A DNA stretch of 64,000 nucleotides from Branchiostoma floridae (lineage: Eukaryota; Chordata; Leptocardii; Amphioxiformes; Branchiostomatidae): positions 18,028-82,027 of the forward strand of contig NW_023365756.1 of the NCBI RefSeq assembly GCF_000003815.2. Direction: 5' to 3'. The position numbers were made by a program, and so were the translations under genes. The notes below the pieces were generated by a model. That model saw nothing but the letters and a program-made list of their open reading frames with translations, searched no databases and had not been told where the DNA came from. How positions within the stretch are numbered: position 1 is the first letter of the stretch; each line of letters starts with the position of its first letter. Shown here one piece after another: positions 28,111 through 64,000 of this stretch.

Positions 28111-28139
28111 AATCTTCTTGGCGAAGCTAAATATGTACC

Positions 28140-29548: not shown

Positions 29549-29604
<56 letters not shown>

Positions 29605-31268: not shown

Positions 31269-34200
31269 ATGATGGCGTGCCTGATGCAATATGCGCACGT
31301 GCTCGCAGTCGTCATCAGTGTGGTGTCTGCCCAGTCCTGTGCACCTCAATGTCGATGTGACGGTACGTTGCATAGTACTACCAGAAAAAAACCTACCAGT
31401 TGACATTCCTAATATGTGTTGGAGTAGCTAAACAAATCTTAGTATATTATGATACAATTTTAATATACACAGCAGTAAAGCCCTAATTTATAATTACCAA
31501 CAAACTTTCGGTCAGTCCTCTGATACTTTTCAAGTTGTAATGACCCAAAGCCTATATCACACATCCAGACCAGAAGTGTGACATCGAGAAAGGGTCAAAG
31601 GTGATTGGAAGTCGGTTTCGGCCCCCGCCTTGATTGAGGTTCATTACAACTTGAAAAGGATCAGGGGATTGATCGAAAGCTTGTTGATTTATCTACAGTT
31701 AGATTTTCTAACGTTTCTAGTTGAACTCTGTATAGATTTCTTTACCAGTTAGCATACAAGTAATGATATGCAGTATTGTGATTACTCTACAAGCAGCGCG
31801 AGACATCAAAAACAGTTAAAAATAGAAAAACCCGATAAAATGCCTTAACACATTTAAAAAAAACTGCCTTGAGACTATTTTGATGACATTTGTCGGGTTT
31901 ACATTCGCGTTTTGAGTCAAATTAGAGCCAACTCAGCGACTTCGACTCCAAAAACACGTGTGTAAGTCCAATCGTAGTCTTTCATGCTGAATATATTAAA
32001 AGTACAATTAAATTGAATCCAAGGTACCACCATGGACTGCAGCCACGGAGCTCTTCCAGGGTTCCCAGTAGATGTACTCATACCGTCTTCAACAGAAATC
32101 GTCGTGATGAGCGACAATCTGTTGACAAGAGTTAATCCAACTCCTGCCTTTCCAAACCTGCTGGAACTGAACCTGGAAGACAACTTCATCACTGAACTTA
32201 CACCGACTTCTTTCCGTTTGCGACCAAATATCCAGATACTTCGTCTTGGAGGCAATAAGATCATTGATGTCACCAATTCTGCTTTCGATGGACTATCCCA
32301 ACTGGTGAAACTGTATCTGAATCGTAACAACATCGAAACGATAGAAGCGTTTGGAAGTTTGTCTGGTCCAAGTAGTTTGGAGATGCTGGACTTACAGAAA
32401 AACAAACTCACGTCTATATCGATCGGCACGTTCACAGGGATCCCGCTGCTTACGGAGCTCAACCTGTCGTCTAACAACATCTCAAAGATAGAAGATGGGA
32501 GCTTTGGTCATTTTAAGAAGTTACGTGTCCTGTATCTGCATTCCAACCAAATCCTTCAGCTGACCAACGCGACATTCTTTGGTATGCCCTCCTTAAACCG
32601 TCTAACTTTGAGTAACAACAAGATACAGAATCTGCCAGATATGGCCTTCAAAGGTGCCGGGTCGCTGGAGTTTCTGGACCTGACATCTAACAGCATCCCC
32701 ACAATCACCCAGGCAGCATTCTCCGGGTTGTTGAATCTTACTGCTCTGTCTCTTAGTTCAAATAATATCAGCACTATTGAGGACGGCGCGTTTCGAGATC
32801 TGATCAAACTACGCGAATTGTCTGTGTGGGACAATATGCTGCAGGAGATCTCAGCGTCAACTTTTGTAGGTCTTGCTCCGGAAGATAGAACAGACAACAC
32901 TGGGCTAGAGGTGAGTATTCAGCGTTTGAGTATGATTTAATATCTCAACAATTGTATATAATTATATGGAACGTTTCCCTGCCCTGTACCCCCCCCCCCC
33001 CGTTTACTAGTTGACAAAGTTTTACCTCATCGAAAAGGTAAGTCGATTTAGTGAAATTTTTGCTTTTAGGTAATGTTTATTGTTTTTTGTTTACTGACTT
33101 CTTTAGTTGTTGACAGCTTATCTTGTGATTGAAATATGAATGTCAATCATGATGTACCTGAATTGAGGGCAAAAGAGAAGATACAGTATAGGTAAAGGAT
33201 AACGTTGTTGCTTACATGCATATACTTACCGTACTCTGGTTTCTTAAAGGTGCTGTACCTCGCTGGCAATCGCCTCACAACTGTCACAAAGGACGATTTT
33301 GCCAGGCTCACAAAACTGACGTTTTTGACGCTTTTCGTAGGTCGAACGAATTTTTCCGTGATATTTTATTTCTCTGAAACGTTATTACATGTCACAACCC
33401 ATCGCACGTAGGGAAAGAAAACAATGTGTTTCAAATTCTATATCAATTAATTACATACATGTATTATGTAGAAAACAAAGTTCACTAACATATAGCAAGA
33501 CTAACATATAGCAAGTTCTTGTTGTTAAAGCACGATGAGACGGATAGAAAATAATTGATAGTCATTATCAATTACAAGAGTTGGAAACAAGCAATGTTAA
33601 ACGGAAGTTGACCTTAATTCGTATATTTACTTCAATATTGAATTAATGTTAATGTATTCATCGCGCACTAGTTTTACCGTCGTTTTGCCCTGTAAACTGT
33701 CAAGACTTTATAAATAATACATGTCAAATATCTAATAGCCTATTACCTTTTGTAACTCATAAACAGCGCAACGATATTACAAGTGAGGGACTCGAAGATG
33801 GTTCATTCGCCAATCTTGGGAACCTTGTCTATCTAAGTCTTTACGCCAACCCACTGACCAACATTTCTTCAGCCACATTTGAAGGTACATAACTTATATA
33901 TCATTCATTAGATTCATTACGAACGAAATTTGTCCTCAGTGACAATGACATAGCATAGTATTAGTGTAAGTTTAGAGACTTTAAAAAGGTAACCTGGAAT
34001 CCAGTCTCTAAGTGGCACGGTCTACCGTAGTTAATGTAGGCTCTCTACGGGGCCAGTGCAGCTCTCAGCCGCCGGGGTAATAGCTAACACTCGGTAGGAT
34101 TTTCACGCTGCAGGACTTTGCCCAGTGGGAGTTAATTCCGGCGCCGAGGACTGCAGACATTAGTATTTCCCCTTGTGGCCGGCAATTAATTCCCAATGGG

Positions 34201-37200
34201 CAAAGTCCTACATTTTGTCACTTTCAGGGCATTGTGAGGGCACGACCGGTACCGGGCTTCAGGCACAACCGGGGCTATACCCCCTACGGGCACCTGTCCA
34301 AATGTGTCACACCTTTGTAATAGCCACGGCTAGTTGGGTGGGTGACCTTGGATGCCAAACGATTGACTAAATAAATAAACAAATCAGAATGTGCATTATA
34401 TGGTGCCAGTTAATTAGTGCTCATTATCATCCCGAAGTTCTTGTTGTAAGATTATATTTTCTCTCATATTTGGTCTCTATATAACATCATATTCGGTGTT
34501 CTCGGAACCACCTGTATTCAATGCTGGACATGCTGCGGTCGTATTTTCATAGGGTTGGTGTCACTGGAGTCATTGGGTCTTGGAAACAACCAGATTCAAA
34601 ACTACCCACCGTTTGTTTTTGCCAACATGCCATCTCTAACAACCATCAACCTATCCAAGTAGGTATATATTGATCAGTACATGTTATAGACCATGTAAAA
34701 TGTTAGAAAGAATACATGTGTGAAGCTCTAACCATGTTCCCTAGACAATTATAAAGAATATACATTTAAGAAACTGCCAAACTAAATTGAGTTGATTTTA
34801 GACAAGTATTGGTCAAGTTATCGAATTCCCTCGCAAAGCAATATAAATAAGAATGAAATCATCGGCAATAGAAATAAAAACAGAAAAAGATATAATCGAA
34901 AAAAAAGAATAAAAGAAAGAATAAAAGAAAGAAAAAGAAAGGAGGAACAAGATAAAGACAAAAAGAGAAAGAAAGTCAGAAAGAAAGAGAGAGAAAAAGA
35001 AAGAAAGAGCACTAAAACATTGTGTTTTTATGTGCATTAGCTTTAGATCCTTTAGCTTCACCTTGCATCCTGATACGTTCGGCAACCTAGCGGCACTCCG
35101 TAATCTTAATATTGCTGGTGTAACGAGCGTCTCGCCGGGTATGAATTTACAATTTATTGCTTTTTACTTTGTCTGTAGATATCCATCATTTCGAAATGGA
35201 TCATATTCCAGTACAGGAAAACTAATGCAAAAATTATCTACCTATTTATACTTTGCAAAATTACGAATTTTTGCTTTGTTTTACGATTGAATATCTATTC
35301 TTGATTTGAGTATCCTGTTTTTTTTTTCAGTATACTTAACCTACGATAAGTTATGTTCTACCTTTAGGTGTGTTTCGGCACCTTCCTTGTCTCCAAGCAG
35401 TATGGATGGGGGGCTTGCTTACCTGCGATTGTGATATACTTGATCTAGTGACATGGCTGAATAGAACAGGTACATGCTTCCGTCAAATTAATTTTGCTTT
35501 CATGATAACATTTATTGCATTATGACCCCCCCCCCCAACCAAACCATCTTTAACATAAAGCAGACATTGTTACAGTCCCGTCGTGGACACATGTAAAGGG
35601 TGCAGGTTAGACTCCTGCTATTTCTCGCTATCTTTGACAACTAAGTACAGAACCTGCCGAACGTACTTTTGTTTCTCTTTTGTATACAGCTGTGACTGTT
35701 CGACCGTTTGAGACCTCGTCAAACCCTGTAGTCTGCTACAATCCAAGTCACTTGATGGGTGTGCCTCTCTTGAGCTTACGAGAGGAAGACTTGCGTATGA
35801 CGTGCCCAGCGACAACCGAACCACCATCAACACAATCTACTGTTCAGATCTGGTAAGTATTTAAGAGCTGATGTCTGTAAAAACCAAGCAAAATCAGAAA
35901 AAGTTAGCCAAACTAAAAAAAAATCGATTTTCCTTAAATTTTGTGTGGTGGTAGGGCCTTGGTCCAAACCTACAAAAATGGCAAAGTTTTAGATCTGCGG
36001 TCACCGGTTGCCATGGCAACGGCCATGTTTCAAAATGGCGGATTTTCACCAAGGGAAGGCCTTGGTCGCGTCCAAAATAGGACTCCTTTGGACTCCTGTA
36101 GCCCCCAAAAATTAACAGATATTTTATTGGTTCTCGGATATGTTATTACCCATATTCTAATGAAAAATGATATATAGTGATGCTCAAAATGTTTTTGTAG
36201 TGAGGTGCAGCAGATGTTTGAAAATGATGTGTATTCGTGAATTTCCAAAATTGACAAAAATCAATTTTTTGAGCATTTTTATTGACCATTAGCTCATTTA
36301 CAGGCAAATCAATTTGCTTGATTTTTGGCACATTTATTGTTTGAACCTTTGTATACATCATATGTAAAAAAAGTTTGGGACTTCCACGTATCGGACCGTG
36401 GTGGCCCAGAGAGTAAACCAATATTTCCATGTCAAGAAAATCGTAACCATAGAATTATTCCTGGAAAAACAGTCATAGCTTACCAAAAATGAATCTCAGT
36501 TTCATTTTATGTAGCAGAGGAACTTACCTATCACTTATAAAAGCAGGGTTGTTCTAGATTTTTTTTATAATTGCCTTTAAAATGATTTTATTTTTTTGGT
36601 CATTTTTAGACAAAAAATGTATATTTTGGCCCGCAACCAAATGACCTGAAATTTGGTATAGGAATGTCCTGGACATGTACACACATGGGATAACTGGTTT
36701 GCCATATAATAGAACAAAATGCTGAATTTTGTGACTTTTTGGGGCATTTTTGGCCCCCTACCCTGGTTTTACAACCAAATGCCCTGAAATTTGAAATAAG
36801 AATGCCCTGGACACATGCGCACATGGATTCCATAACCATTTTTGCGTACTGTTCAACAAAATGCTAAATTTTGTGATTTTTGTTAATTTTTTTCCCAAAA
36901 AAAAACGACATTTTTGGCTCCCCTACCCTGGTTTTACAACTAAATGACCTGGAATTCGGTATAGCAATGCCCTGAATATATGCGCACATGGATTGCATAC
37001 AGTACAACAAAATGCTTAATTTTGAGATTTTTGCCATTTTGTTACCAAAATCATTTTTTTGCTCCTGTTCCCTGGTTTTTCAAGTAAATAACCGGTAACT
37101 AGAAAGGCCGACATTTGCTTGAGAGCAAATACAGCATATTTCAGCCATCTCCCTCCCCATGCAACAATAGGCTATTTCAAAATCACCCATTTGAAAAATC

Positions 37201-40018
37201 ACTTTTACTAATGACGGTTTAACCCAAAAATGAGTCTTACAAAATTCCCCCGTTCAAGAATGGACTCCAGTGCACCCTATGTGAATTTGCACAATAGACC
37301 AGTCCAGAAATACTCCCACTGAAACCTTGGCCTTTTGAATAAGAAACCAAATCCAAAATTGAATTTAGCAAAAAAGGTCCCAGTGCATAAAAAGGTATGA
37401 TAGACCAGTCTAAAAACACTTCCACTAAAATTGAATTTTGAATCATCACCCGTTCAAAACTGAATTTGAAAAAATCCCCCTTCCGTGTGCAAAAAATGGA
37501 CTCTTCCATGTAAAGTAGAGCAGTCCAAAAATACATCCGCTAAAATAGGACTTTGACATAATCACTGAAGTCCAAAAAATGGATTAAAAAAAAGCCCCCT
37601 CTATGCAAGAATGGACTCTTCCAGAACACCCATGTAAAATTGCAAATTAGACCAGTCCAAAAATAACCCTACTGAAAGACTTTGACAAACTAGAAGTCAC
37701 CAAAGTCCAAAATATGAATTTTGAAAAATCCCCCCGCCGTGCGAGAATAGACTCTTCTGTAAAAGTTTCATGCATACACATGTTGTCTTAATGTTGATTT
37801 GAACCGTTGAAAGAAAAATATTACCAATGAAAGCTTTGATTTTTAAAATTCATTACAGACTTTTACATGACTTTCCTCACTACACTCAGGTGGAAATGAG
37901 TACCTAGCTTCGGTTAGAGCCATCCACCAATAGAAATTTAAATGGATGTCCTGTGTTTGCCACACCTCGAGCACGTTCAAGAACTCCAATTATCGAAAAG
38001 AGTAGGGGTTCATTCTTAATGTGAGTGGATCAAAACCAACAGTCCTCTGGCCGCACCTTAGGCTAATTGTCGTATTGAGTTCACCAGAGGTAGCGCCGAA
38101 TGACAGCCGTTCCCTCGCATTTCAGCCAGCGTAGAGAGAGTTGTCGACCCACGCAATAACATAACACATAACAACAATATCTTAATGGTTGATGAATACA
38201 AATGTGTTCTTTTCTATCATGCTGTCTCTCTCTAAACATGCGTACTGCTTCATCTTTTGTACAGCCCAACACCCTCTCCTACGACTGAAGCTACGACGGC
38301 TCCTCGTCTTGCCACAACTCCAAGGCCAACACCACCACTTCCCTCGTCCTTTAAAACTGCACAACCAGGAACCTGCCCCGGTCCACAGGACGTCACCATC
38401 CAAAACGTACAGGACTCTCGTACCGACATTCAGTGGTCTCACGGAGGTAAAGCCGTTAGTACGGACCTGACAGGATTCGTCATTCAGTACCAAATCTTTG
38501 GTCACCAGTCGTGGATGACAACACAAAAGATTCACTCGGATGGCCGTCACTTCACCATAAATGATCTCCTTCCTGACACTCCTTACCAAGTCTGTGTGGC
38601 CGTTCTCTGCAAGGATGAGCTGGTACAGCCAGGACTGGACCACTGCGTGTCATTTATAACGAAAAGCGCATCTCCTGTGACATCTCAGCTATCACAGGCA
38701 ACAGTAGTAGGCTTGGCTGTTGGCATCCCGTCGTTGCTCATCATCCTAGGCCTTTTGGCAGCAATCTTCTGGAAGATGAGAGGGCGATCCGGATCCTCTT
38801 CAGAAGATGAGGCCGGTTACGTATTGCCTGAACGCCCTCACCGCCAGGTAATGTTGTTTGCAATTCAATGAGTGTCTTTCCTTTTCTTTTGTCTTCCTTT
38901 CTTTTCTTTTCTTTTTCTTCTCTTTTCCTTTTTTTCTTACTCTAGTACTGTCCAGTACACTATGAAGCCCCTTCCCCCCAAAAAGCTTTTGGCATCATTG
39001 TGAGTTGTTTTGAGAAGTACCAAAAGAAGCTCAGGATTCTTTGACTTTGACTTGACCTTTGACCTTGCGTATGGGTACTTACAGGAAGCGGATCAAAACA
39101 CGGCTGGCTGTGCAGTTGATACTCAGGTGAATGAGTACCAAACCTCACCATTCTCCGGAGAGTCCACAACAGGCAGTATCACCAGCTCGTATCTGGACTT
39201 GGGCAGAGCTGCGGACATGCTGAACTCAACAGGTTTGTCTGTTGCTCCTTTTATTGTCTTTTTATCATAAATCCCTCTGGAGGAAAATAAACATGTATCC
39301 GCCACTCTTTCTAGAGTTCTCTACTAATACGATAATGTGAATGCAACTTTCTTCTAAAAATCACAAGTTGACATACTTATTATATAAATACTAACAACGC
39401 CTTGCGCATATCACACTATTTTCTATTAATAATATTTCAAATTGAGTTGATAATCGCTATAAATATTATCATGTCACAGGGGGCAGAACAGAGAGTTTGA
39501 AACTACGAAAGCTCAGTATCACAGATTCAAAAATATGTCGGTTATTACCAGTACCACAGCAGACAAGATGATTTGTTGCGCTTCTATTGTTTTGTGTGTA
39601 TGTCAACAATTTGAGCTTGAGAAACTGAAGAAAGATCCGTATGATATGTGTCACATGGGTACTTGTCAATCGTTTATTATGTCCCTAGCGGTTCTCCATG
39701 GTACTGCAGCTTGTGGTTTTTAAAATCTGGGCATGTTTCAGTTTTGATTTTTTGGTAGTAGAAGAGATATTAAAGGTATTTCGTTATTTACCTTTTTCAT
39801 ATTCTATTCTAGATGCAGACCATGATCACTATCCACCAGCTCCTGTCCCACGCCAGGACCCAACTGTCTCCTCAAGCTCATTCAACAACACTGCGTACGC
39901 CCCTGACAGTATGAACGACAATATCTATACTACAGTCGACGACGACGCACTTGAAGACGGAGCAGATGCTAATATGTCATCTACAGAGGACGACGTTTAC
40001 ATCCATGTCATCGGTTAG
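31269..40018 (+). CDS. LRR-fibronectin III transmembrane receptor, copy L1 (863 aa)
   Basis: Eleven exons: 31269-31362, 32024-32910, 33250-33336, 33767-33884, 34553-34658, 35041-35138, 35368-35469, 35690-35852, 38265-38847, 39085-39232, 39813-40018; all GT-AG, 2592 nt in frame. Signal peptide 1-21 (AHVLAVVISVVSA|QSC); LRRNT 24-50 (C-x3-C-x-C...C); about 17 LRRs of ~24 residues to ~490; LRRCT with CDCD and MTCP; Pro/Thr-rich stalk 552-586; one FN3 domain ~588-684; membrane helix ~698-721 followed by KMRGR; tail of ~140 residues. Tail tyrosines: SSYLDL (Y782) fits the ITIM consensus, with NIYTTV (Y834) and DVYIHV (Y858) as Y-x-x-V sites. The layout resembles LRR-FN3-TM families such as LRFN/FLRT/ELFN, but orthology is not claimed. 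Probably a cell-surface adhesion or recognition receptor; ligand unknown. Confidence 0.92.
31492..31690. mobile_element. MITE-like hairpin in intron 1 of L1
   Basis: Arms of ~50 bp (31492-31543 and 31641-31690) are imperfect inverted repeats: ACTTTTCAAGTTGTAATGA against TCATTACAACTTGAAAAGGA. Intron 1 is 661 bp in L1 but 403 and 372 bp in L2 and L3, so the insertion explains most of the difference. Confidence 0.8.
33985..34378 (+). mobile_element. Short interspersed element in intron 4 of L1
   Basis: A GC-richer block ends in ACTAAATAAATAAAC, a SINE-like A-rich tail. Its GGGCACGACCGGTACCGGG... and CCCTACGGGCACCTGTCCAAATG core matches, inverted, 47490-47620 in intron 4 of L2. Relative to the gene both have the same orientation. 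A tRNA-like head was not found. Confidence 0.55.
34860..35020 (+). repeat. Purine-rich (GAAA-type) tract in intron 5 of L1
   Basis: About 160 bp of nearly pure A/G on the coding strand, 20 bp or so before the exon 6 acceptor region. Corresponding tracts lie in intron 5 of L2 (46671-46832, perfect tetranucleotide) and of L3 (about 59450-59510). Confidence 0.7.
36570..37095 (+). repeat. R2 tandem repeat in intron 8 of L1
   Basis: Four ~130-bp units with CCCTGGTTTTACAAC, AATGACCTGAAATTTGGTAT and GCGCACATGGAT, the same family as 22921-23560. Intron 8 is 2.4 kb here and 730 bp in L2, largely because of this array and the next. Confidence 0.8.
37200..37760 (+). repeat. R2-associated ~100-bp tandem units in intron 8 of L1
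   Basis: Five or six units with AGAATGGACTCTTCC, AATAGACCAGTCCAAAAATA and CTCCCACTGAAA. They match 23700-23834 on the opposite strand. Confidence 0.7.
37860..38110 (+). mobile_element. 5'-truncated tRNA-type SINE in intron 8 of L1
   Basis: ACTTTCCTCACTACACTCAG, GTACCTAGCTTCGGTTA and GCCGAATGACA match the body of the complete SINE on the minus strand at 45180-45550. The tRNA-like head is missing here. Confidence 0.6.
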
Positions 40019-40042
40019 TCCAGGACATTGTTGAGGTTAAGG

Positions 40043-41345
40043 CCAAGTTGTTTGATTATATGGATGACATCTTTGGGTAATCCCAAAATGATGTAAGCTT
40101 GCGAGTAAAAGATAAGTTTGGCAAAAAAAGTTCACTTTATTATGAAATTTGAGGGGTCAGAATTTTTGAACAAATGACTATACATCCAGAGTATGGTATA
40201 CCAAGTATTAATTTTTTTTTACCTTGGAATTCATTTTATCATTTTATGACATCTAACGCATACATTTGCTAATTTTGCAGCTGTTTTGTACGATTGGTCA
40301 TTTATGGTTGAATTTTTTAATGGAAACTGCTGACAATTGTTTACCCCCGCGGATGCCATTATTATATATAATCAAATCAACGTGGCCGAACAAGGCAGCA
40401 GACATTGATCGTAGTGAAGAATTTTGTTAAAAACACATGTATTTGTGGATATCAAGATGGTGGACGGTAGTTTTGAATTGTAATAAGGCCATGTTGATTT
40501 GATTATATGGATGACATGCGCTCTCGCACCAATTTTCGGCCATTTCCAACAAAAAAAAAGTTTGGACCACACAGTAAATTGTGCAAAGCAGCTGTAAAAT
40601 GAGCACAAATATTCCGTAGATTGAAAAAAAGTATCAGAAAATCGATAACTGATGCCATAGAATGCCAAAATAAATCTCAAAAGTCAAAGAATAAAATGTG
40701 AAAGGACAGAAAGAAAAAAAGTATTTTTGGTAGGGGTTTGTACATGTACCAGTAAATTCAGGATAGGTCCCGTTCAGGTGGACGTGAACCTGGACCTGAT
40801 TGTCTGTGGAAACTTGAGAACTGATAATACTCAAAACAATGGTAATTGGTCAATTTTGCTACAAAGGAATCTATTTGGTGGATCATTGGACTACCACTGG
40901 CATTTTAAAATCCCATCTTCATGTAATAAAGGCTAGCTGTCTCTGTACCTGCCTGTAGAAACTTGGTACAAGTGACTATAACTTCTACTCACTTCGCTAT
41001 TGTCTTCTTGGCCCGGTAAGACCCCAAACACCCGCCGACATAGTGTGTCCATTTTGCAATTAGCGAACCCCGTTCGTCTGATTTTTTTTCAGGTCTGTTT
41101 ATTTCAGATTGGTCCAAGAAGAAAAAAAATGTATTGCACCCGTATGATGTACTGGTCTCAACATCTAACTGTTGGTATACTATACTATGTGTTTGTAGTC
41201 CTATATGCAACCTTCCTGGCCACATTGATTTCATACTGAAGCCAACTTTTTTTTGGCCAAACTTTTTTTTTTTCGCTCGCTCGCATCAATTTTGGAGTTC
41301 CCAGAGGATGTCATCCATATAATCAAATCAACATGGCCTAAATGG
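40043..41345. mobile_element. DNA elements with GATTATATGGATGACAT terminal repeats
   Basis: The motif AGGCCA-GTTG(A)TTTGATTATATGGATGACATC occurs forward at 40047-40072 and 40485-40512 and inverted at about 40369-40392 and 41307-41336. They pair as two elements: ~350 bp (40047-40392) and ~850 bp (40485-41336). No transposase frame lies inside, so they look non-autonomous. Fragments of the same end occur near 2231 and 11559. Confidence 0.65.
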
Positions 41346-41874
41346 AAAAAAATATTGCTGTTTAAAGCCACCGTTTGTCGACTTGTTTACCCCTCCCCCC
41401 AAATACCCCAGTTCTTAAAGCAATGGATATAGGTTACCTTGCGGATAAAGGTCAACTGGCGTTGCTCAAGCCCACGAGCAGGAATTATTTTCTCAGAGAC
41501 CACATTTCTACGAATACGAATCCAAGCAAATTTCGTAAATTTGCATATCGACAACGAAATGCATGTATTTTCTTTAAATGACTTTGTTCTCTCTATTTTT
41601 GAGGTTGATACTTAAAATAGCAATGAAAGTCTGATTGAAAATGTTTTACGGGCGTCGATGAAGTAGTTTTTTTGGGGGAAATCTTAATATTTTCCAACAA
41701 TGACTTCAACCATTTGCGCAGTTTTAAGTTGGAATATCATAGATATACTACGTTACATATTAGCTATTTAAGGAAGTCTTTTTGATGATCTGTTTATGAC
41801 AGATATCGATACCCAGAGGTAGGAAGTCACCGTATCACGCCAATCTTTTTTTTTTCAAGATTTTAATGTGTATC

Positions 41875-41923
<49 letters not shown>

Positions 41924-41952
41924 ATATCGAGTTTATATCAATCAAAGGCCTA

Positions 41953-42130
41953 GCTGCCATCCGTCCTTACTGTGTTTGCGCTTGTCAGCCGTCGCCAACC
42001 AATCACACCGTCGCCTGCGGTCAAGAGGAAACGTGATTGGCTGGAGACTTTTCCTCTAACAATTGGATGGGAGCATTTCATTGGCTGACGGCTGGCAAGT
42101 GCTAACGAATCGTGAAGGACGGATGGCAGA
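41953..42130. mobile_element. MITE-like hairpin
   Basis: AGCTGCCATCCGTCCTT at the left end is complemented by AAGGACGGATGGCAGAT at the right, and CTTGTCAGCCGTC further in pairs with GACGGCTGGCAAG. The centre has paired CCAATCAC / GATTGGCT motifs. No ORF of note. Confidence 0.75.
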
Positions 42131-43328: not shown

Positions 43329-50553
<7,225 letters not shown>

Positions 50554-53060: not shown

Positions 53061-53189
53061 TTCAATTAAATGTGGTTATTTTCCTTTTAGAAGTATGACA
53101 TGTGGAAAAGAAAAGTTATCAGTAGAATTATTATTCATTTATTTATTTATTTACGGCCTACAAAACATGTCTGGAAAATGCATAACAAC

Positions 53190-54400
53190 CGACGGAGGCT
53201 GAGTGGATATGTACCGTATTCATTTTGATTGATGAATGGCCTTGCAACTCCGACGTACGTAGCTAGGAGGCGCACTCTAAAGTTTGAGAGTCTCAATTGG
53301 TTAATCTTAGTATCTCGTATATTCAACTTTCAACCGTGTCATGATATGAAGGAATACAAAACTTTTGCAGATAACCTGCCCTTTGCTCATGAGATACTAG
53401 TATTTCTAAAAAGAAAATTACCAAATTGTCATTCAATTGAAGTGCATTACGCAGCTTGTATTATATAGAAGATGGGAGGGGAGCTGGATCTATTCAATAG
53501 TGCCATTGTTTGCATCAGAACTTGCCAAACAACTTTGTCCTCTTGACCAGACTAATTCAGGAAATGACCCCTGAAGACAAAAACTTGTGTCTTGTGTAGG
53601 CTTGTGATCTGTCGTATGTAACTCGTGTGATACAGAAGACAACCGACGGAGGCTGAATGGATATGTACCGGCGGATTCATTTTAATTAAACAATGCGGTG
53701 CAACTCCGATGTGCTTGGCTAGGTGACACTTTAGATTCACATACTGCAATTGATATATGTTAGTATCTCGTATATTCAGCTTTTCACCGTGTCATGATAT
53801 GAAGTAATATAATACTTTTACGTTTTATTCATTCTACAGCTAGCCTGGTGTTGTAAACAGCATGTACTATTTTATGACATGAGATATGCACAAAAAATAT
53901 CCAGACAATGCATAACAACCGACGGAGGCTGAATGGATATGTACCGGTGTATTCATTTTAATTAAACAATGCGGTGCAACTCCGATGTGCTTAGCTAGGT
54001 GACGCTTTAGATTCACATACTACAATTGATAAATCTTAGTATCTCGTATATTCAGCTTTCCACCGTGTCATGATATGAAGTAATATAATACTTTTACAGA
54101 TAGCCTCTCCTTTCCTCATGGCATATTTCGAAAAAGGAAAATTACCAAATTGTCATTTAATTGAAGTGCACTACACAGCTTGGATTAGAAGGTGGGAGGG
54201 GGGCTCAATCTGTTTATCAGTGTCACTGTTTGCATCAGAACCTGCCAAACAACTTTGTCCGCTTGACCGGACTAATTCAGGAAATGATTCCCGAAGACAA
54301 AAGACTTGTGTCTTGTGTAATTCTTGTGATCTGTCGTATGTAACTCGTGTGATACAGAAGTGGGAGACAGTGCACCGTAGAGGGTATAATACCACTGTGA
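53190..54400 (+). repeat. 5' repeat array of L3, three units
   Basis: Units begin at about 53190, 53640 and 53910 (ACAACCGACGGAGGCTGA, ATGGATATGTACCG). The middle one lacks its 3' half. Full units end GTATGTAACTCGTGTGATAC, AGAAG. The last unit has GACAGTGCACCGTAGAGG where L1 and L2 have a GTAAA/GTAAG donor, so the L3 donor here is weakened. Confidence 0.6.
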
Positions 54401-55796
54401 GTACGCCCTATGGTCTTCAATATAAGACAGATTTAAGGCCGGCTATTTGTGTTATAACTTTGGTGTTGAATGTAATAAGATTTAATAAGATTGTGAAGGG
54501 TCAGACGGCTCCAGGATAAGTGTTTGAGTATGCTTTTGTCTTATATATTCTAGTCTGGTGTTGTACACATCATGTACTCTTTTATACATGTAGTAACTGT
54601 CATAGTTTTAGAAACCATGAAAGTTTTGGATTTTCTCTTGTCAAGTGGAAGCCCCTGTCACATGTTACCCCACGATTGACCTTAAACAACCCCAATTCAT
54701 CATGTCTAGCTCCAATTGGCTCCGTAGCTGTGAAGAATGTGAATATAAAGATTAATTTTAAAGACTAGTAGGCAATTTCGCCGGCCAACACCAAAACACA
54801 GATAACCTTGCTCAGTTCTGAACCCAAAGGCACCCCAACCATGGTCTAGAAAAGCTCGGGGGCAAATTAAACTAGCTATGTGTGACAGGGACTTGAAATG
54901 TTTACGTTTGGTTTACGGTTGAGACCACATTGTGAACACCACAATAACAAGAGTTCGGACAGCTCTCGTCTCCACCAAATATTCTGACTATGCAAATGAC
55001 TTATACATCTACATTGGTTATGTACACATTTAACCAACTTATACAGGCCAAATCATTAATACTGTACCACTTATTAGAAATAGACTCATTTGTAAGGTAT
55101 CAAATAATGTTTCATTTGCCACAGTCAACATATGAAACATGTATTTGAGTCCCATAATGGAAAATGCTGCAAGTATAGATTTTCCTCATTAAATATGCAG
55201 ATTTATTTAGATTGAGAATCAAATTACACTTCATTACATGTATGTACATCTGTCCATGCTACCTGCATACTAAATATCATTAATATCGTCGTTTGCCTAG
55301 CTATGGTCGTTGTCAGAGTGTGACAAAAATATCCCTGCAGTGCCAGAGCAAGCTGCTAGTGGGCCCAAACAAGATCCCTTCCTTCCATAAGCTATCTGTC
55401 ACGTACACCATAGCTCGTCCTGGTCAAAAGATAAAATGAACGGAAGTTGTGCTGCAGTACGTACCAAGGTCAACACCGGGGGGGGGGCAAACATTGACCT
55501 TAACCTTTATCTTCCAAACATCTATCTACATAATAAATACGATCGTGTGAGTACCCAGACGTCCGGGGAATAAAGCAATCAGTCGAGTAATCTTGTTATT
55601 CAGTGACTTAACAAGCTAATGAAACTATTCATACAATTCCTAGTCTGTTTTGATGATTAAGCCATTGTATGTAATAGTGCAATGAATAAAATACACAGAC
55701 CATTAGCTATTAGTGTTCATTTATACCGTCTTGTTGTATATAAGGGCTGTATGACAAATATATTTGTATCCAATATCTTATTGTCAACAGCTGGAT
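54401..55796 (+). other. Upstream region of L3
   Basis: No coding exon. 54530-54790 matches 29220-29480 upstream of L1. R3-type sequence lies at 55330-55530 with a short G run near 55480. The 55640-55790 stretch before exon 1 (CCGTCTTGTTGTATATAAGG) matches L1 at 31190-31215 and includes a TATATAAGG TATA-like sequence. Confidence 0.55.
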
Positions 55797-58700
55797 ATGA
55801 TGGCGTGCAGGTTGAAGTTTTGTCTGATGCAATGTGCGCACGTGCTTGCAGTCGTCATCAGTGTGGTGTCTGCCCAGTCCTGTCGAACTCAATGCCGATG
55901 TGAAGGTATATTGCATAATACAAAGAAACTACCAGTTGATATTCCTAATACAAATCTGCGTTAAGATTGCAATATGAACTGATTTCGTTTGTTAGTGTCT
56001 GTTTTGTTCCAAGTTGGCATTTCAATGCCTTCTCTAAACGTAGTAGTATGCCAAACTTGGGGGATGTTTTAATGTCATCCTCCGTCTACAGGTAGGTTTC
56101 CTAACGTTTCTAGTCGAAATCTGTATAGATTTCTTTACCAATTAGCATAACAATATGCAGTATTGTGATGACATTTATCGGGTTAACATGCGCTTTTTCA
56201 GTCGAATCTGAGCCGACTCAGCGACTTAGAGTCTGTCATACTGAATGTATTACATGTGCAATTTAATTGAATCCAAGGTACCACCATGGACTGCAGCCAC
56301 GGATCTAGGCAAGGGCTCCCAAGAGATCTATTCATACCGTCTTCAACAGAAATCGTCGTGATGAGCGACAATCTGTTGACAAGAGTTCCTCCAACTCCCG
56401 CCATTCCAAACCTGCTGGAACTGAACCTGGAAGATAACTTCATCACTGAACTTACACCGACTTCTTTCCAATTGCGACAAAAGCTCCAGATCCTTCGACT
56501 TGGAGGCAATAAGATCATTGATGTCGCCAGTTCTGCTTTCGATGGACTATCCCAACTCGTGAAACTGTATCTGAATCACAACAACATCGAAACGATAGAA
56601 GCGTTTGGAAGTTTGTCTGGTCCAAGTAGTTTGGAGATGCTGGACTTACAGAAAAACAAACTCACGTCTATATCGATCGGCACGTTCACAGGGATCCCGC
56701 TGCTTACGGAGCTCAACCTATCGTCTAACAACATCTCAAAGATAGAAGATGGAAGCTTTGCTCGTCTCAAGAAGTTACGTGTCCTGTATCTGCATTCCAA
56801 CAAAATCCTTCAGCTGACCAACGCGACATTCTTTGGTATGTCCTCCTTAACCCGTCTAACTTTGAGTAACAACAAGATACAGAATCTGCCAGATTTGGCC
56901 TTCAATAGTGCCGGATCGCTGGAGTTTCTTGACCTGACATCTAACAGCATCTCCACAATCACTCAGGCAGCATTCTCTGGGCTGTTGAATCTTACTGGTC
57001 TGTCTCTTACCAAAAATAATATCAGCTCTATTGAGGATGGCGCGTTTCGAGACCTGGTCAAACTACGCGAATTGTCTGTGTCGGACAATATGCTGCAGGA
57101 CATCTCAGCGTCAACTTTTGTAGGTCTTGCTCCGGAAGATAGAACAGACAACACAGGTCTTGAGGTTAGTATTCAGCATTTCCGTATGATTGAATTTCTT
57201 ATATATAATTATATGGAAAAGTTTTGGTGTACTGTAGCTGTATCCCCAACCCCCACCGTTTCTAGTTGACAAAATCTTACCACATCGAATAGCTGTCAGT
57301 TTTGTCAAAATTTCTCTCGGTGTGATTGAAATATTACCGTTATTCATGACTTACCTCCACTGAGGGCGAATAAAAAGCAAAAGATTAATATTCCATAGTT
57401 ATATAGGATAAAGTGGTTGTTTACATGCAAAATGTACTGTGGTCTCTTAAAGGTGCTGTATCTCGGAGACAATCGCCTCACCACCATCAGGAAGGATGAT
57501 TTTGCCAGGCTCACAAAACTGACGTTTTTGACGCTTTGGGTAAGTCGAACATATTACAAATACTTTTATCCATGTAAAACAATGATAAAGCACACATTGC
57601 TATGACGTATAACTAAAATACAACACGATGCATTCCGTATCACCTGAGGTACAAACTTGACCGCGGGTCGGTTCGATGCCCGAAGGTCGGAGAGTGAACC
57701 GACCCACGGGAAGGCTGAGATCGAGGGTGATGCGTAACACACGGTGTTGCATTTATTATGTCGTACCCTCCTGTAACAACAATATTGCGAACATCCGAAA
57801 ATCGGCATCAAAATTTTTGACCCGAATTGCGTTCGAATTATGCCATGGAAGCACCCATTCGAACGCTATCCCGGACCAGGTATGACATAATAAGAGAAAA
57901 TAATAGCAACTTCTTGGTTTCTGGTTTCAAGAAGAGTAATATTTTCTCAGCTCAGCTGTTTTTGCTGTGGTTAAGCGTTGTGAATGTAGTTTACAACGCC
58001 CCCTGCGGTTGTTAACTAAAGGCATTGGCGCAAATAGCAAGGTTGTTCCCGTTGTTAAGGCACGATGAGAGAGCTAGAACACAACTGTTAGTACCAATTA
58101 TCAATTATAAGTATTGTAAAGAGGCTTTGTTTATACATGTATGTTATATGGAAGTTGACCTTTATTCATATATTTATCTCAATATTGAATCAATGTTTAT
58201 TCATCACGCACTACTATTACCGACCGTTTGCCCTACGAATTGTGAAGACTATATGAAATATCAATTTACCAAATATGCTAATAGCTTATTACCTTTTGCA
58301 ACTCATAAACAGCGCAACGATATTACAAGTGAGGGACTCGAAGATGGTTCATTCGCCAATCTTGGGAACCTTGTCTATCTAAGTCTTTCCGAAAACCCTC
58401 TGACCAACATTTCTGCAGCCACATTTGAAGGTACATAGCTTATACATAGTTCATTAGGTGCACAACAAACAGTATTTGTCCTCGGCGACGATGATGTAGC
58501 ATAGCATAACTCACGTTAGGTTCAGAGACATTTCTGAAAATATGGGGGTACAGTAGAAGTCAGTTATTATCAATTAGGTCCAGTGTATCTGTATAATTGA
58601 CTTTGTCTAATTTTTATTTTGTTTGTTTTGTAGTTTTGGACTGTGTAACATTTGCCTTCATTCATTAACACACCAATTCAAGTCTAAGCCACTGACAAAA

Positions 58701-61700
58701 GGTAGCGGATGCTACCTGAAACATCTTAAATCTATCCTGTTGCATGGCTACATGTAGATGTTCTCTTGCTAATCTGATGCCAGTTATCATCTTTATTGCA
58801 CAGCCGTCGTTTTAAGTCTGTCGGCTTCCACAGGGCAATTCTGCCTGCTTTACAATGTACTGAAATATGTGTGTCGCTGCGCACAGATGCAGTCAGGAAC
58901 TCAAAGAACTTTGCGTTTCTGACCGCATCTGTAGGCAGCGACACCTATGGTATCAATATTTGTTATATATGCCTTGGCAATACAAAGATCAAGGTCTTTG
59001 TTGATCCTACCTAGCGGTTATCGTTGGTAATACAGAAGAAACACCTGTTTCTGTATCCTATTCTGGACATGCTGTGGTCGTATTTTCATAGGGCTGGTCT
59101 CTCTGGAGTCATTAAGCATTAGAAACAACCAGATTCGAAACTACCCTCCGTTTGTTTTTGCCAACCTGCCATCTCTAACAACAATCAGGCTATCCAAGTA
59201 TGTATATATTTATCAGTCATGCCATAGACAATGTAAAATGTTGAGAAAGACTGCACGTGTGAAGCTCTAACCATGTTCCGTAGACATTATCAGGCATATA
59301 CATTAACCATTTAAAAAACCATTTACGTACTCGCCACGTTGTCGAATTCCCTGGCAAAGCAACATACTTCGTGTGGACTTTGTTATGACTGTTCATTCAT
59401 TTTAGGGCACATAGCATAACTCAATGTCACGTCATGGAAAACAGAAAAATCAAATAGGAAGAAAGAAGGAAAGATATAAGGAAGAAATTAAGAAAAATAG
59501 AAAGAAATAACACTTGAACATTGTGTTTTTATGTGCATTAGCCATAGATCCTTTGGTTTCACCTTGCATCCTGATACGTTCGGCAACCTAGCGGCACTCC
59601 GTCATCTGAATATTGCTAATATAGTCAGCGTCTCGCCGGGTATGAATTTACAATTTATTTCTATCCATTTATCTGTAAAAAAACTTTTCATGCTTTTAAC
59701 ATGTATCAGTCTCTTTATCTTTCTCCCCCCTCTCTCTCTCTATATAAATATATTTATATATGTATGTGTATGTGTGTGTGTATTCTATCTCTCTCTATGA
59801 CGTTCTGATAAATTATATACGTATTTATAACTACAGGAAAAATAATGCGAAAATGATGTACCTTTAACGTTGTACTTAGCAAATTAGGAAATTGTTTCTT
59901 GTTTTAGGTTTGAGTATAAATTTTGCATTGGAGTATCCTGTGTTGTCTTTTTGAAGTATGGTTATGCTTTACCTACGACAAGTTATTTTTTTCCTTTAGG
60001 TCTGTTCCGGCACCTTCCTTGTCTCCAAACAGTATGGATTGGGGGCAGTCTTACCTGTGATTGTGATATACTTGGTCTAGCGACATGGCTGAATAGAACA
60101 GGTACAGGCTTCACTTCAATGGATTTTGCAAAGGCTTTTAGATAACATTTATTGCATTATGACCCCACCCCCACCCCGATATAAAGCCGAAAATATTACG
60201 GTCCCGTCGTAGACACATGTACAGGTTACAGGTTCGACTCCTGACATTCCTGACTAGAATTGTGATGCGAATTGAGGTTTCCTAACAAGAATTTTAATTC
60301 TTTACTTCAGCCAAGTGTAAGTGGGTATATGACTTCTGGAAGTGAAAACAGTGAACGTTGCGTAAGGAAGGAAATGGGCTCCACATTGTCCAAGATAGGC
60401 TACTCCTGCCTAAGTGTTTAGGCTAGGGACTGGCTCCTTGCTTGCCTCCATTAAGTTTTTCCCTTACAGGATCAAAATGGATATTTACCGTCAACTAAGT
60501 AGAGCACCTGCCAAAAGTGCTTTTGTTTCTATTTTGTATACAGCTGTGACTGTTCGACCGAGTGAGGTCTCGCCAAACCCTGTAGTCTGCTACAATCCAA
60601 TTCACCTGAGGCGAGTGCCTCTCATAGACCTACGAGAGGCAGACTTGCGGATGACGTGCCCAGCAACAACCGAACCACCATCAACACAAACTACTGTTCA
60701 GATCTGGTACGTTTTTAAACCGTGAAGACTTTATGCGTCTTAAAGCTTTATATATTCTTTAAGTTAGAGTCTCAAATCAAAAGATAAGCATTGGCACACA
60801 TGATTGATGTCATGTATATGTCACAGTGGAGATCACGATCCAGGAGAATCGCCGATCCTCCTAGGAGAGATCGCGATCGGAGTTTCTCCTAGGAGAAATC
60901 CCGATCGCAATCTATACTAGGAGGATCGGCGATTCTACTAGTATAGATTGCGATCGGGAATTCTCCTAGGAGAAACTACGATAGCCTGATATAAGAAACA
61001 GATCCCGATCGCAATCTGTACTAGTAGAATCGGCGATTCTCCTAGTACAGATTGCAATCGGGATCTCTCCTAGGAGAAACTCCGATCCAAACTCAAACGA
61101 TGCTAAGATGTATGAAACAGCAATAATTTTTTTGATAAACAATGATTTTATTCAGTTTCAAATGCAAACCTACTAACTCATTACCAACTACACTCAAGCC
61201 TACTTCTGTACTTCTACAATGTTAACTTCACCGAAGACTACCACACTTGAGTCACTTCTGCAACTTTACTCAATGCACACTTCTACTCAATGCTACCTCG
61301 TCTGACTAGTAAATGTACTCAATAGGTGTGAAATTGTTAGTAATATCTTGAAACTCTGCTTGATATTTTGACACCTGTTGATCACTTAACAATGGCTATT
61401 GTTCTCCCAAAGCTGTGAAATGATTGAGTACAAGTCTGACTAGTGAAATGTACTCAATAGGTGTGAAATTGTGAGTAGTATCTTGAAACTCTGCTTGATT
61501 TTTTGACACCTGTTTGACAACTTTACAGTTGTTATTGTTCTTCCAAAGCCGTGAAATTTGCATACTAACACATTGTTTGATCACCTGTTGGTGTCTTTCA
61601 CATATTATAAGATTTTTGCCACTACTTTAAAAGAAATTACTTTATCAGAAATTGCTTTATCAGAAAACCGGAAATTACCAGAAAATTTANNNNNNNNNNN

Positions 61701-64000
61701 NNNNNNNNNNNNNNNNNNNNNNNNNNNNNNNNNNNNNNNNNNNNNNNNNNNNNNNNNNNNNNNNNNNNNNNNNNNNNNNNNNNNNNNNNNNNNNNNNNNN
61801 NNNNNNNTTGAGTGTAGTTGGTAATGAGTTAGTAGGTTTGCATTAATACCGAATAAAATCATTGTTTATCAAAAAAATTATTGCTGTTTCATACATCTTA
61901 GCATCGTTTGAGTTTGGATCGGAGTTTCTCCTAGGAGAAATCCCGATCGCAATCTATACTAGGAGAATCGCCGATTCTACTAGTACAGATTGCGATCGGG
62001 ATCTGTTTCTTATATCAGGCTATCGTAGTTTCTCCTAGGAGAAACTCCTATCGCGATCTCTCCTAGGAGGATCGGCGATTCTCCTGGATCGTGATCTCCA
62101 CTGTGACATATACACATGTGTTGAATTAACGTTGATTTAAATCTTTAAAAGAAAAATAATACTAATGAAAGCTTCAAAATTTAAACTATTCTATGGAATA
62201 AGAAATTTGTGTAAGATACGTTGGGATGTGTGGCGTAAAGGCAGTATGTTGTATAGCCTGTAACCCAGAGGACCTGGGTTCAAATCCGTTGATATGCCAC
62301 CGATCTTGTGTCCCTGGGAAAGGCAGTTTACACGACCACAGCATGTCGAGAAGTTTTTTTTGCTTTGCGTGGAACCAGACGCCCGCTTGAAGAAGGCCGT
62401 CTCAGCGCATAGGTGACTTTGGGCTCCAGACGACGATTTCCGCATCACTTCATAACGTAGAGCTATTGGACAACCAGGACAAATACATGTAGGGTACGAA
62501 TTAGCAATTCATCAGCTTGGGTAGTGACAGTGGTCGGCCCATCCGATAAGACAGCATCGTAATGGATCGAAGAAGACTTTGAATACTTATGTGCTCTCTT
62601 CTGTCATGATTGCTGTCTTTCTCTTAACACATGTGCTGCTTCATCTTTTGTACAGCCCAACACCCTCTCCTACGACTGAAGTTATGACGTCTCCTCGTCT
62701 TGCCACAACTCCGAAACCAACAGCACCACTTCCCTCGTCCTTTAAAACTGCACAACCAGGAACCTGCCCCGGCCCACAGGACGTCACCATCCAAAACGTA
62801 CAGGACTCTCGTACCGACATTCAGTGGTCTCACGGAGGTAAAGCCGTTAGTACGGACCTGACAGGATTCGTCATTCAGTACCAAATCTTTGGTCACCAGT
62901 CGTGGATGACAACACAAAAGATTCACTCGGATAGCCGTCACTTCACCATAATTGATCTTCTTCCCGACACGCCCTACAAAGCCTGTGTTGCTGTTCTCTG
63001 CAAGGATGAGCTGGTACAGCCAGGACTGGACCACTGTGTGGACGTTACAACCGGTACCGGATCAGCATCTCAGCTATCACAGGCAACAGTAGTAGGCTTG
63101 GCCGTTGGCATCCCGTCTTTGCTCATCATCCTAGGCCTGGTGGCAGTAGTTGTCATTTTTTGGAAGATAAGAGGGCGCTCCTCTTCAAAAGATGAGGACG
63201 GTTACATAATGCCTGAACGCCCCCATCGCCAGGTAATGTTACAGTAATGTTATGCCATTAGTGTCTTTCCTTTCGTTTTCTTTTCTCTTCTTTCTTTTCT
63301 TTTCTTTTCTTTTTTTCATTACATGTGTAACACAAACTAGTACTGTCCTGTACACTATGAAGACCCCCCCCCCCCAGTGGCAGTTTGTGGCATCATTGTA
63401 AGTGGTCTGGAGAAGTACCAAAAGAAGTTCAGGATTCTCTGCCTCTCTTAGAATTACTCGAATAGGAGCTCATAATTCTTTTTGTCGCAAACGAAACCAG
63501 TAATATAGACTTCAATACCATGATAACCAACAGTTCTAAAATCTGACCTTAGACGGATATAAATAAACAGGGTGGAAATATTTCTGCATACGCATGCGAA
63601 AGGTCAAAGGTAAAGGATTTCTACATATCCATCCTGCTTTCGTCTGTATTGTCAAGAGATGGTATGTTTACGTCACAGAGGCCTTCACATTTGACCATGC
63701 GTATGCGAACTTAGAATCGCGAATCTCCTTATTCTTCTGATTTAGAGAGCATCTTCTTACTAACGAGTTTCCATATGCATCTATAGCAAGCAGATAAGAG
63801 CTCGATTGAAGGTGCAGTTAGTAGTATTGATGGTCCAGACATGTTTGTTTATGACTCAGGGGCCCTTACCTTTGACCTTGCGTATGCATACTTAGACTTT
63901 TCAATCTCCTTATTCCCTTGACTTCGAGGGAATCTTCTCATTCACATTACTAAGGAGTTTCCCTCTATAGGAAGCGGGTCAAAGGGATGCGAAATTCGAA
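55797..64000 (+). CDS. LRR-fibronectin III transmembrane receptor, copy L3 (runs off the window)
   Basis: Exons 55797-55905, 56278-57164 (donor GTTAGT), 57453-57539, 58313-58430, 59092-59197, 59542-59639, 60000-60101, 60544-60706, 62656-63232 and the start of exon 10 at 63971-64000. Joined in frame they give 759 codons so far. Order as in L1: signal peptide (AHVLAVVISVVSA), LRRNT, ~17 LRRs, LRRCT, Pro/Thr stalk, FN3, membrane helix (GLAVGIPSLLIILGLVAVVV), then RGRSSSKDEDGYIMPERP in the tail. Differences from L1 cluster in LRRs 7-11 and in LRRs 15-17. Introns 3, 4 and 8 carry private insertions; intron 8 is enlarged to 1.95 kb by a foldback element. The exon 10 acceptor is ambiguous: the last 400 bp contain repeated acceptor-like segments. 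The rest of the tail lies to the right. Confidence 0.88.
57753..57893. mobile_element. Hairpin insertion in intron 3 of L3
   Basis: TTATTATGTCGTACC (57753-57767) is complemented by GGTATGACATAATAA (57879-57893). It lies next to a second inverted pair (GCGGGTCGGTTC / GAACCGACCCACGG at about 57662-57710). Not found in intron 3 of L1 or L2. Confidence 0.65.
58866..58948. mobile_element. Small hairpin element in intron 4 of L3
   Basis: ATGTGTGTCGCTGCGCACAGATGC...  pairs with CCGCATCTGTAGGCAGCGACACCTAT; same family as 47106-47195, but the left arm has diverged. Confidence 0.75.
61304..61560 (+). repeat. Tandem duplication inside the foldback element
   Basis: Two ~130-bp copies starting CTAGTAAATGTACTCAATAG (61304) and CTAGTGAAATGTACTCAATA (61437), each containing ATCTTGAAACTCTGCTTGAT and TTTGACACCTGTT. 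Confidence 0.8.
61690..61807. other. Assembly gap (118 N) inside the foldback element
   Basis: Undetermined bases near the centre of the inverted repeat, where assembly of a palindrome is expected to fail. Confidence 0.99.
62225..62450 (+). mobile_element. tRNA-derived SINE in intron 8 of L3
   Basis: TGGCGTAAAGGCAGTATGTT...GGTTCAAATCCGTTGATATGCCA folds like a tRNA: GGCGTA at the 5' end pairs with TATGCC at the 3' end and the B box is intact. The body CTTGTGTCCCTGGGAAAGGC is the type seen in deuterostome tRNA-SINEs. It is not a functional tRNA: the anticodon arm is not convincing. Confidence 0.7.
63590..63990 (+). repeat. Tandemly duplicated exon 10 acceptor region of L3
   Basis: The motif TTTGACC(A/T)TGCGTATGC...CTTAGA...TCTCCTTATTC...GAGTTTCC...CTATAG occurs twice (about 63690-63786 and 63882-63970), each ending in a usable AG. 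L1 has one copy just before exon 10 (39050-39084). The frame after the first AG (CAAGCAGATAAGAGC...) recalls the exon 10 start EADQ of L1. Confidence 0.6.

Follow-up and report, generated by a model that had tools for sequence, protein, structure and literature searches.

Within a 64-kb stretch of the Branchiostoma floridae genome, three neighboring genes code for membrane receptors that combine leucine-rich repeats (LRRs) with a fibronectin type III (FN3) domain, and their alternating orientation and mutual similarity raise the question of whether they are recognition receptors that are still diversifying, adhesion molecules, or recent duplicates with no special role. We addressed this in the window, i.e., the whole stretch of 64,000 nucleotides that was analyzed (bases 18028-82027 of the 201,194-base scaffold NW_023365756.1, hereinafter C198), and by genome searches that took in 431 contigs and 513,431,437 bases; coordinates are those of the window unless a contig is named. 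With a probability of roughly 0.55, we conclude that the genes belong to a family of type I membrane receptors that is small and young, most likely tyrosine-signalling recognition receptors diversifying by duplication and gene conversion. We regard this as the best explanation because of the exon anatomy of two of the genes (A and B), the modeled LRR solenoid, the small genome-wide count, the ratio of nonsynonymous to synonymous divergence (dN/dS), the variability of the concave LRR face, the mosaicism of the copies, the match of the cytoplasmic tail of gene A to that of an older paralogue (H), and the precedents set by other amphioxus LRR receptors.

Three receptor genes in alternating orientation

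The genes A (+ strand, 31269-40018), B (- strand, 50553-43329) and C (+ strand, from 55797 past the window end) are paralogous far beyond chance, the longest inverted or direct repeats joining them measuring 300-1051 nt at 90-95% identity, in the + - + order given by a preliminary description of this DNA. Each has nine homologous exons, placed by homology and AG/GT borders, with frames open over 2238 nt in A and 2247 nt in both B and C; two tail exons come after these, both within the window for A and B. The same description had called the genes nearly intact. This holds for A, complete in the window with 11 coding exons for 863 amino acids (aa) ending at 40018, and for B, which is complete with a shorter tail (825 aa, end at 43329), but only in part for C, whose final tail exons are at the window end or past it, adjoining an assembly gap.

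In gene A, all on the + strand, the first ATG lies exactly at 31269 and opens exon 1 (31269-31362), which by homology and its hydrophobic N-terminus supplies the start codon, the signal peptide and the first part of the N-terminal cap (LRRNT). Exon 2 (32024-32910; homology, Pfam and LRR motif count) holds the remaining LRRNT and LRR1-11, and exon 3 (33250-33336; AG/GT borders) LRR12 and the start of LRR13. Supported by homology and AG/GT borders, exon 4 (33767-33884) completes LRR13 and adds LRR14, exon 5 (34553-34658) holds LRR15 and the start of LRR16, and exon 6 (35041-35138) the rest of LRR16 and LRR17. The C-terminal cap (LRRCT) is divided between exon 7 (35368-35469; first part, by reading of the cysteine pattern) and exon 8 (35690-35852; second part, by reading), after which exon 9 (38265-38847; Pfam fn3 E=1.6e-9 and hydropathy) codes for a Thr/Pro stalk, the FN3 domain, the membrane helix and the juxtamembrane tail. 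The remaining tail is encoded by exon 10 (39085-39232; AG/GT borders), with a sequence SITSSYLDL that resembles an immunoreceptor tyrosine-based inhibitory motif (ITIM), and by exon 11 (39813-40018; sequence comparison), with NTAY, DNIYTTV, DDVYIHVIG and the stop.

Gene B follows the same plan on the - strand. Homology and AG/GT borders place its exon 1 at 50445-50553 and exons 3-8 at 48782-48868, 48461-48578, 46961-47066, 46507-46604, 46038-46139 and 45761-45929, homology and Pfam its exon 2 with LRR1-11 at 49155-50041, and Pfam (fn3 E=1.7e-8) its exon 9 with stalk, FN3 and membrane helix at 44460-45030. Sequence comparison identifies exon 10 (43980-44115), where SYQDF replaces the ITIM-like motif, and exon 11 (43329-43423), a short tail end with YASI and FKNPAY before an early stop. 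In gene C, on the + strand, homology and AG/GT borders likewise place exon 1 at 55797-55905 and exons 3-8 at 57453-57539, 58313-58430, 59092-59197, 59542-59639, 60000-60101 and 60544-60706, with exon 2 (LRR1-11; homology and Pfam) at 56278-57164 and exon 9 (stalk, FN3 and membrane helix; Pfam fn3 E=2.9e-8) at 62656-63232. Just the first bases of exon 10 (63971-64000), recognized by likeness to A, precede the window end next to an assembly gap, and exon 11 lies beyond that end. Assembly gaps are absent from A, B and the related gene F (see below) through exon 11; C is interrupted twice, between exons 8 and 9 and again at exon 10.

A, B and C thus share the ectodomain order signal peptide, LRRNT, 17 LRRs, LRRCT, Thr/Pro stalk, FN3 and membrane helix, and with the tyrosine-containing tail this is the anatomy that had been proposed, including about 17 LRRs, which we counted by motif and by eye. 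Pfam recovered LRR_8 and fn3 above cut-offs in all three genes; with the whole A protein as query, LRR families and fn3 exceeded the cut-off, LRRNT fell below it (E=0.002), and no match to LRRCT, Ig, TIR or WSC appeared at E 0.1, so that both caps are called from their cysteine patterns. An AlphaFold model of C exon 2 has 11 strands at even spacing after a short first strand (mean pLDDT 78, pTM 0.81) and, as expected, agrees with an LRR solenoid. For A exon 9, modeling gave a poor result (pLDDT 45), which was left unused. Foldseek searches with the exon-2 model retrieved generic LRR solenoids only (LGR4/5, TLRs, Nogo receptor and LRIG1), and in a PDB sequence search the best solved relatives were LRIG1, IGFALS and LGR4 for the LRR exon and generic FN3 domains, those of Dscam and contactin, for exon 9; the likeness to solved structures is a fold-level resemblance only.

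Among the introns, intron 5 of B carries a 40-copy repeat of the 4-base unit GAAA (46671-46832), the same intron being purine-rich in A and C, and intron 8 of C has an inverted repeat (arms 60919-61161 and 61843-62085, 243 nt, 93%) that flanks the assembly gap and contains a 104-base tandem unit. No tRNA was found in the 64-kb window.

A small family with few members outside the cluster

The preliminary description had proposed a genome-wide count, and by this count the family is small: eight loci were recovered with the LRR exon and eight with the FN3 exon, combining to nine sites. The LRR-exon search yielded 250 matches at E up to 0.001, with 125 of 2032 candidates scored, and generic LRR genes are therefore undercounted; among the matches scored, nine rows at eight loci show at least 62% identity and the next 39%, a drop on which we reject a large expanded family. 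The FN3-membrane exon gave nine matches with all 27 candidates scored, eight of them family members and one 24% identical.

The sites are A, B, C, D, E and X on C198, where the cluster extends beyond the window to about 123.5 kb, F on contig C8, and G and H on contig C4. D consists of 5' exons only and X of 3' exons only; both have the same orientation, with gaps of 2 and 5 kb between them, and may be parts of a single gene. Exon 9 of X lacks its first 120 bases and adjoins sequence that, read in the opposite direction, scores 25.8 bits with Pfam as a TIL cysteine-rich domain (cut-off 24.5); at this place, outside the window (C198:87400-88200), the 5' end of the FN3 exon is joined to antisense TIL-coding sequence, marking a breakpoint or an insertion. 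In F, a 17-base deletion in exon 2 breaks the frame. G and H, in which the parts corresponding to exons 1 and 2 read through as a single exon, are older paralogues.

The 24% match belongs to a gene (C10:21483376-21483897) that has an 857-aa open frame with LRRNT, LRRs, Ig, FN3 and, by reading, a hydrophobic stretch, and that looks like an LRFN/SALM-like, neuronal-type relative standing apart from the cluster. It bears on the possibility that the clustered genes are adhesion or guidance molecules, i.e., lineage-specific relatives of the neuronal or epithelial LRR-FN3 proteins of the FLRT/LRFN/ELFN kind that were duplicated without an immune role. This reading, which we consider unlikely, draws on the order of LRR, FN3 and membrane helix typical of that class, on the small copy number, and on the fact that the sole weak further relative of the FN3 exon is this LRRNT-LRR-Ig-FN3 gene. 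However, that gene is separate, shares just the above 24% within the exon, and has an Ig domain, unlike the whole A protein; moreover, dN/dS of about 0.5, mosaic copies and concave-face variation (see below) are unusual for conserved guidance molecules, and the two tail types with tyrosine motifs also speak against it. Strong purifying selection on all LRRs along with a one-to-one neuronal orthologue had been named beforehand as the observation that would contradict a diversifying receptor family; instead, we found purifying selection to be moderate and the LRR-Ig-FN3 gene to be separate, and on these grounds regard a conserved neuronal orthologue as unsupported in the one lancelet genome searched.

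Alleles versus copies

A 9.3-kb block with the 5' halves of B and C (C198:65766-75074) recurs with D and E at C198:107432-116732, in pieces of 90-97% identity, mostly 96%, and the synonymous divergence (dS) between B and D in exons 1-2 is 0.038. Lancelet heterozygosity is given as 3.2-4.2% in the available parts of two reports (PMC12500494, PMC12862219), and 4.39% single-nucleotide polymorphisms are given for B. belcheri in those of a third (PMC4284660). The dS value falls within the 3.2-4.2% range, and D and the 5' half of E may represent B and C on the other haplotype, retained in the scaffold, a partial assembly artefact for which we see about even odds and which would be compatible with a recognition-receptor family. 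The 100-N gaps flanking the pieces of E fit such an artefact, while the 3' part of E differs more from C (86-92% in exons 5-9) and, a weak point, the flank at 26300-29900 has no second copy other than that of a mobile element among the 40 of 5047 candidates scored. A, B, C and F are independent of this question. The C198 region as a haplotig of the C8 locus was rejected, as matches of at least 250 bases between C198:1-152000 and C8:3195001-3265000 are 73-90% identical, too low for alleles.

The copies are exon-scale mosaics

Informative sites among A, B, C and F are divided 32, 27 and 19 among the three possible groupings, and the grouping switches 32 times against 50.9 expected (p=0.0002); for A, B, C and E the groupings receive 43, 14 and 8 sites, with 22 switches against 32.5 expected (p=0.001). 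This by-site test counts neighboring sites within one codon separately, and its repetition with one site per codon gives weaker values (32 versus 45.4, p=0.001, and 22 versus 28.0, p=0.027). Correspondingly, the closest pair shifts from exon to exon: C-E in exons 1 (99.1%) and 2 (97.3%), B-E (99.0%) and, with F, C-F (96.9%) in exon 6, and E-F in exon 8 (95.7%). Along E, introns included, the nearest copy is C, then B, briefly A, and then F, and the stretch with exons 3-9 (C198:116833-122400) is gap-free. Scaffold joins did not make the mosaic of A, B, C and F, because A, B and F are gap-free within the gene and C has gaps only between exons 8 and 9 and at exon 10. The copies are therefore exon-scale mosaics, a pattern that fits gene conversion or unequal crossing-over.

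Divergence and variation along the receptor

The genes had been said to look like a young, diversifying family, which agrees with pairwise dS of 0.129-0.162 and dN/dS of 0.49-0.52 among A, B and C, with their mosaic structure, and with an enrichment of change on the concave face. Where introns could be aligned, over 1646-1876 bases out of 3.8-5.3 kb, they differ by 0.16-0.19. In a comparison of six copies, the concave LRR face was variable at 27 of its 68 positions, the remaining non-core class at 57 of 256 (Fisher p=0.005) and the core at 8 of 85; the concave set comprises positions 3, 5, 7 and 8 of LxxLxLxxN, a choice that follows the usual LRR geometry, and the contrast is not clean, because the remaining non-core class also includes structural positions. 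Variation had been located mainly to the tail and a section of the LRR array, and indeed the variable parts are LRRNT-LRR1, LRR10-12, LRR16-17, the LRRCT, the second half of FN3 and the tail, i.e., change is enriched at both solenoid ends and in the tail. In sliding windows over A, B and C, the proportion of nonsynonymous change (pN) exceeds that of synonymous change (pS) at codons 37-84, 205-228 and 421-468, among others.

On a single tree, a site model with positive selection (M2a) was favored over one without (M1a) by twice the log-likelihood difference (2dlnL) of 66 for the whole and 29 for the LRR region. We do not accept this at face value, because many of the top sites form blocks common to copies; recombination among exon-scale mosaics explains much of the apparent site selection. 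These tests used our own implementations, not PAML; the six-copy tests leave out G and H, D enters without exons 5-9, and part of E exon 2 lies in a gap. Two codons at the E gap edge were masked in the site-selection tests and left unmasked in the by-site clustering test, and columns inserted relative to C were dropped.

Two types of cytoplasmic tail

The tail of A has seven tyrosines, the last two at 834 and 858, 24 residues apart. Its motifs SITSSYLDL, DNIYTTV and DDVYIHVIG have counterparts in H, likewise in this order (SITSCYLEL, DNVYNKV and DNVYISIVG), and the C-termini of both match over 36 residues (42%, E=1.5e-5 in a 20-kb search), covering DN[IV]YxxV and the terminal VYIxx motif. The exon-11 motifs are common to A, C, E and F, and the exon-10 motif is present in F and, as YLDV, in E. 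In its broad form an ITIM reads [S/I/V/L]xYxx[I/V/L]; with S at -2, the ITIM-like SxYLDL of A and F, SxYLDV of E and SxYLEL of H fit this broad form only, and not I/V/LxYxxL/V as given in the available part of PMC8211107. In G the sequence is SNPYLEL, and no last tail exon was found.

B and X differ from these copies in having SYQDF for YLDL, HYASI for HY[PVA]PAP, and a stop shortly past an NPxY-like motif. In B the short tail apparently goes back to a one-base insertion in the last exon, in an alignment made by eye, by which the last two tyrosine motifs would have been lost. The family therefore has two tail types, long ones with tyrosine motifs and short ones (B, X), and on the scaffold the long-tailed A, C and E lie on the + strand and the short-tailed B and X on the - strand.

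KIR, LILR and SIRP are paired immune receptors of vertebrates built on Ig domains. As in these, young clustered paralogues here have related ectodomains on tails of putatively different signalling type; unlike these, the ectodomain is LRR-FN3 rather than Ig. We therefore raise, as a distinctly improbable extension, that this is an LRR-based paired-receptor system, in which recombining solenoid ectodomains would sit on long tails with SH2-type tyrosine motifs (A, C, E, F) or on short tails that have lost them (B, X), the kinds tracking orientation and gene conversion reshuffling which recognition face carries which signal.

Relation to known LRR receptors

The vertebrate LRR-FN3 membrane proteins LRFN/SALM, FLRT, ELFN and TRIL have LRRNT, LRRs, LRRCT, FN3 and a membrane helix; the genes studied here differ from them in their 17 LRRs, the missing Ig match, the tyrosine-motif tail and the tandem mosaic copies. 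LRFN/SALM proteins have the order LRR, Ig, FN3 and membrane helix, but a scan of the whole A protein at E 0.1 gave no Ig domain, unlike in the C10 gene, and membership in that group was rejected. FLRT proteins have about 10 LRRs followed by FN3 and a membrane helix; 17 LRRs were counted here, and FLRT membership was rejected despite the shared FN3 and helix. Toll-like receptors were set aside as no TIR match appeared in the whole A protein at the same threshold, and variable lymphocyte receptors (VLRs; LRR-only, with a Thr/Pro stalk and somatic assembly) because these are complete germline genes with FN3, membrane helix and tail.

Precedents are several receptors of amphioxus and an oyster, all as described in the available parts of the sources. 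BbLcLRR of B. belcheri is an inhibitory, gut-expressed LRR receptor with ITIM-like tyrosines that is bound by Lck (PMC8211107). It shares with our genes the amphioxus origin, the membrane location, the LRRs with LRRNT/LRRCT and a tail in which several tyrosines stand in YxxV-like contexts; it differs in its WSC domain and in its repeats, given as one LRR and three typical LRRs, FN3 or fibronectin being unmentioned in what is available of that source (PMC8211107), against 17 LRRs, FN3 and other tail motifs here. The whole A protein gave no WSC match at E 0.1, and membership in the BbLcLRR type was rejected. Another amphioxus LRR receptor, FrLRR, promotes phagocytosis (PMC10199209), as reportedly does CgLRFN of the Pacific oyster (Huang 2018, cited in PMC10199209), which according to that citing description recognizes bacteria and shares the combination of LRR and FN3. 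In B. floridae itself, which is said to have 948 LRR-only models, the VLR-like protein Bf66946 binds bacteria with its concave face (PMC4731796); like the present receptors it is an LRRNT/LRRCT-capped solenoid, and unlike them it is LRR-only with few repeats, without the added FN3, membrane helix and tail. No paper on the LRR-FN3 cluster was found in the amphioxus literature on LRR with FN3 or fibronectin type III, as covered by titles and abstract openings (mostly outside subscription journals). LRR-FN3 receptors as such are known; the variant in this cluster combines 17 LRRs with two types of tail and with tandem copies that are mosaics.

Mobile elements and repeats near the cluster

A 1.25-kb mobile-element-like stretch lies at about 26855-28138 and recurs at about 40 further places in the genome at 89-98% (the best 40 of 5047 candidates); given so many copies at this level, the element was probably active recently. 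A reverse transcriptase fragment at 9600-10061 (RVT_1, E=3e-10) is part of a retroelement, and a tandem array whose short unit measures some tens of bases extends over 2.6 kb outside the window (C198:142739-145350).

Weighing the recognition-receptor reading

Several observations weigh against a family of diversifying recognition receptors. Its small size suits adhesion as well; the frame is broken in F, and D, X and E are fragments or contain gaps. The ITIM-like motif is not at its place in B, X and G (exon 10 of C is missing), and by our own estimate a single such match by chance in a tail with seven tyrosines is not unlikely; since chance matches to the broad pattern are not rare, the weight rests on the conservation in H. 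In exons 1-2, compared over 15 pairs among A, B, C, D, G and H, dN/dS is 0.25-0.33 at dS 0.98-1.18 for a cluster copy versus G or H (8 pairs) and 0.50-0.58 in five of the six cluster pairs, a soft contrast, since estimates of dS become unreliable near 1 and dN/dS tends to be raised in recent pairs; furthermore, B-D stands at 0.35 and G-H at 0.45. Neither LRR4-5 (codons 145-180) nor the first FN3 half (601-648) contains a silent change among A, B and C, whose longest identical run is 73 nt versus a 95% limit of 61 in shuffles (p=0.014), and since the sequence of LRR6-7 is well kept in G and H too, constraint besides homogenization may act in the middle of the solenoid. Finally, when separate trees were used for 11 segments, the selection statistics summed to 36.9 (22 degrees of freedom, p=0.024); the strongest segments were exon 8 (p=0.011), exon 1 (0.044), exon 6 (0.056; dN/dS 1.67 under the one-ratio model M0) and the first third of exon 2 (0.075), and none of the 11 is significant after correction for 11 tests; positive selection after allowing for recombination is thus weakly supported.

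That fall of the signal from 2dlnL 66 to a combined p of 0.024 is what neutral evolution of young tandem duplicates might leave: under relaxed constraint, gene conversion (concerted evolution) would make the mosaic and some copies would decay, with no special recognition role. The frameshift in F, the 5' and 3' fragments D and X, the shortened tail of B, and an intron divergence close to dS (0.13-0.16) all accord with this. Yet full open frames and splice sites are kept in A and B, and in C through exon 9, dN/dS stays at about 0.5 over the gene, the tail motifs are kept between A and H, and change is enriched on the concave face; we judge the neutral account doubtful, slightly more so than that of adhesion.

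If the genes are recognition receptors, the curved concave face and both ends of the 17-LRR solenoid, with the LRRCT, would bind ligand, held at a distance from the membrane by the FN3 domain and stalk, and tail tyrosines, as suggested by motifs kept in the older paralogue, would be phosphorylated and recruit SH2 proteins, long-tailed and short-tailed copies presumably signalling differently. The cluster would have grown by inverted tandem duplication, with exon-sized segments exchanged among copies through gene conversion or crossing-over. The most likely role would be to recognize variable surfaces, microbial or other, at the gut, the gill or another epithelium.

Lancelets diverged near the chordate base, and they serve in studies of how the recognition receptors of vertebrate immunity originated. 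Should adhesion or neutral drift prove to be the explanation instead, the locus would still offer a clear case of concerted evolution in a young cluster. If the paired-receptor extension is true, the cluster would resemble the vertebrate KIR/LILR clusters on another fold, evolved in an invertebrate chordate. A family of few genes that swap exon-sized segments and carry two types of tail would be tractable for testing germline gene conversion as a source of receptor diversity, and could show whether inhibitory or paired signalling predates Ig-based receptors.

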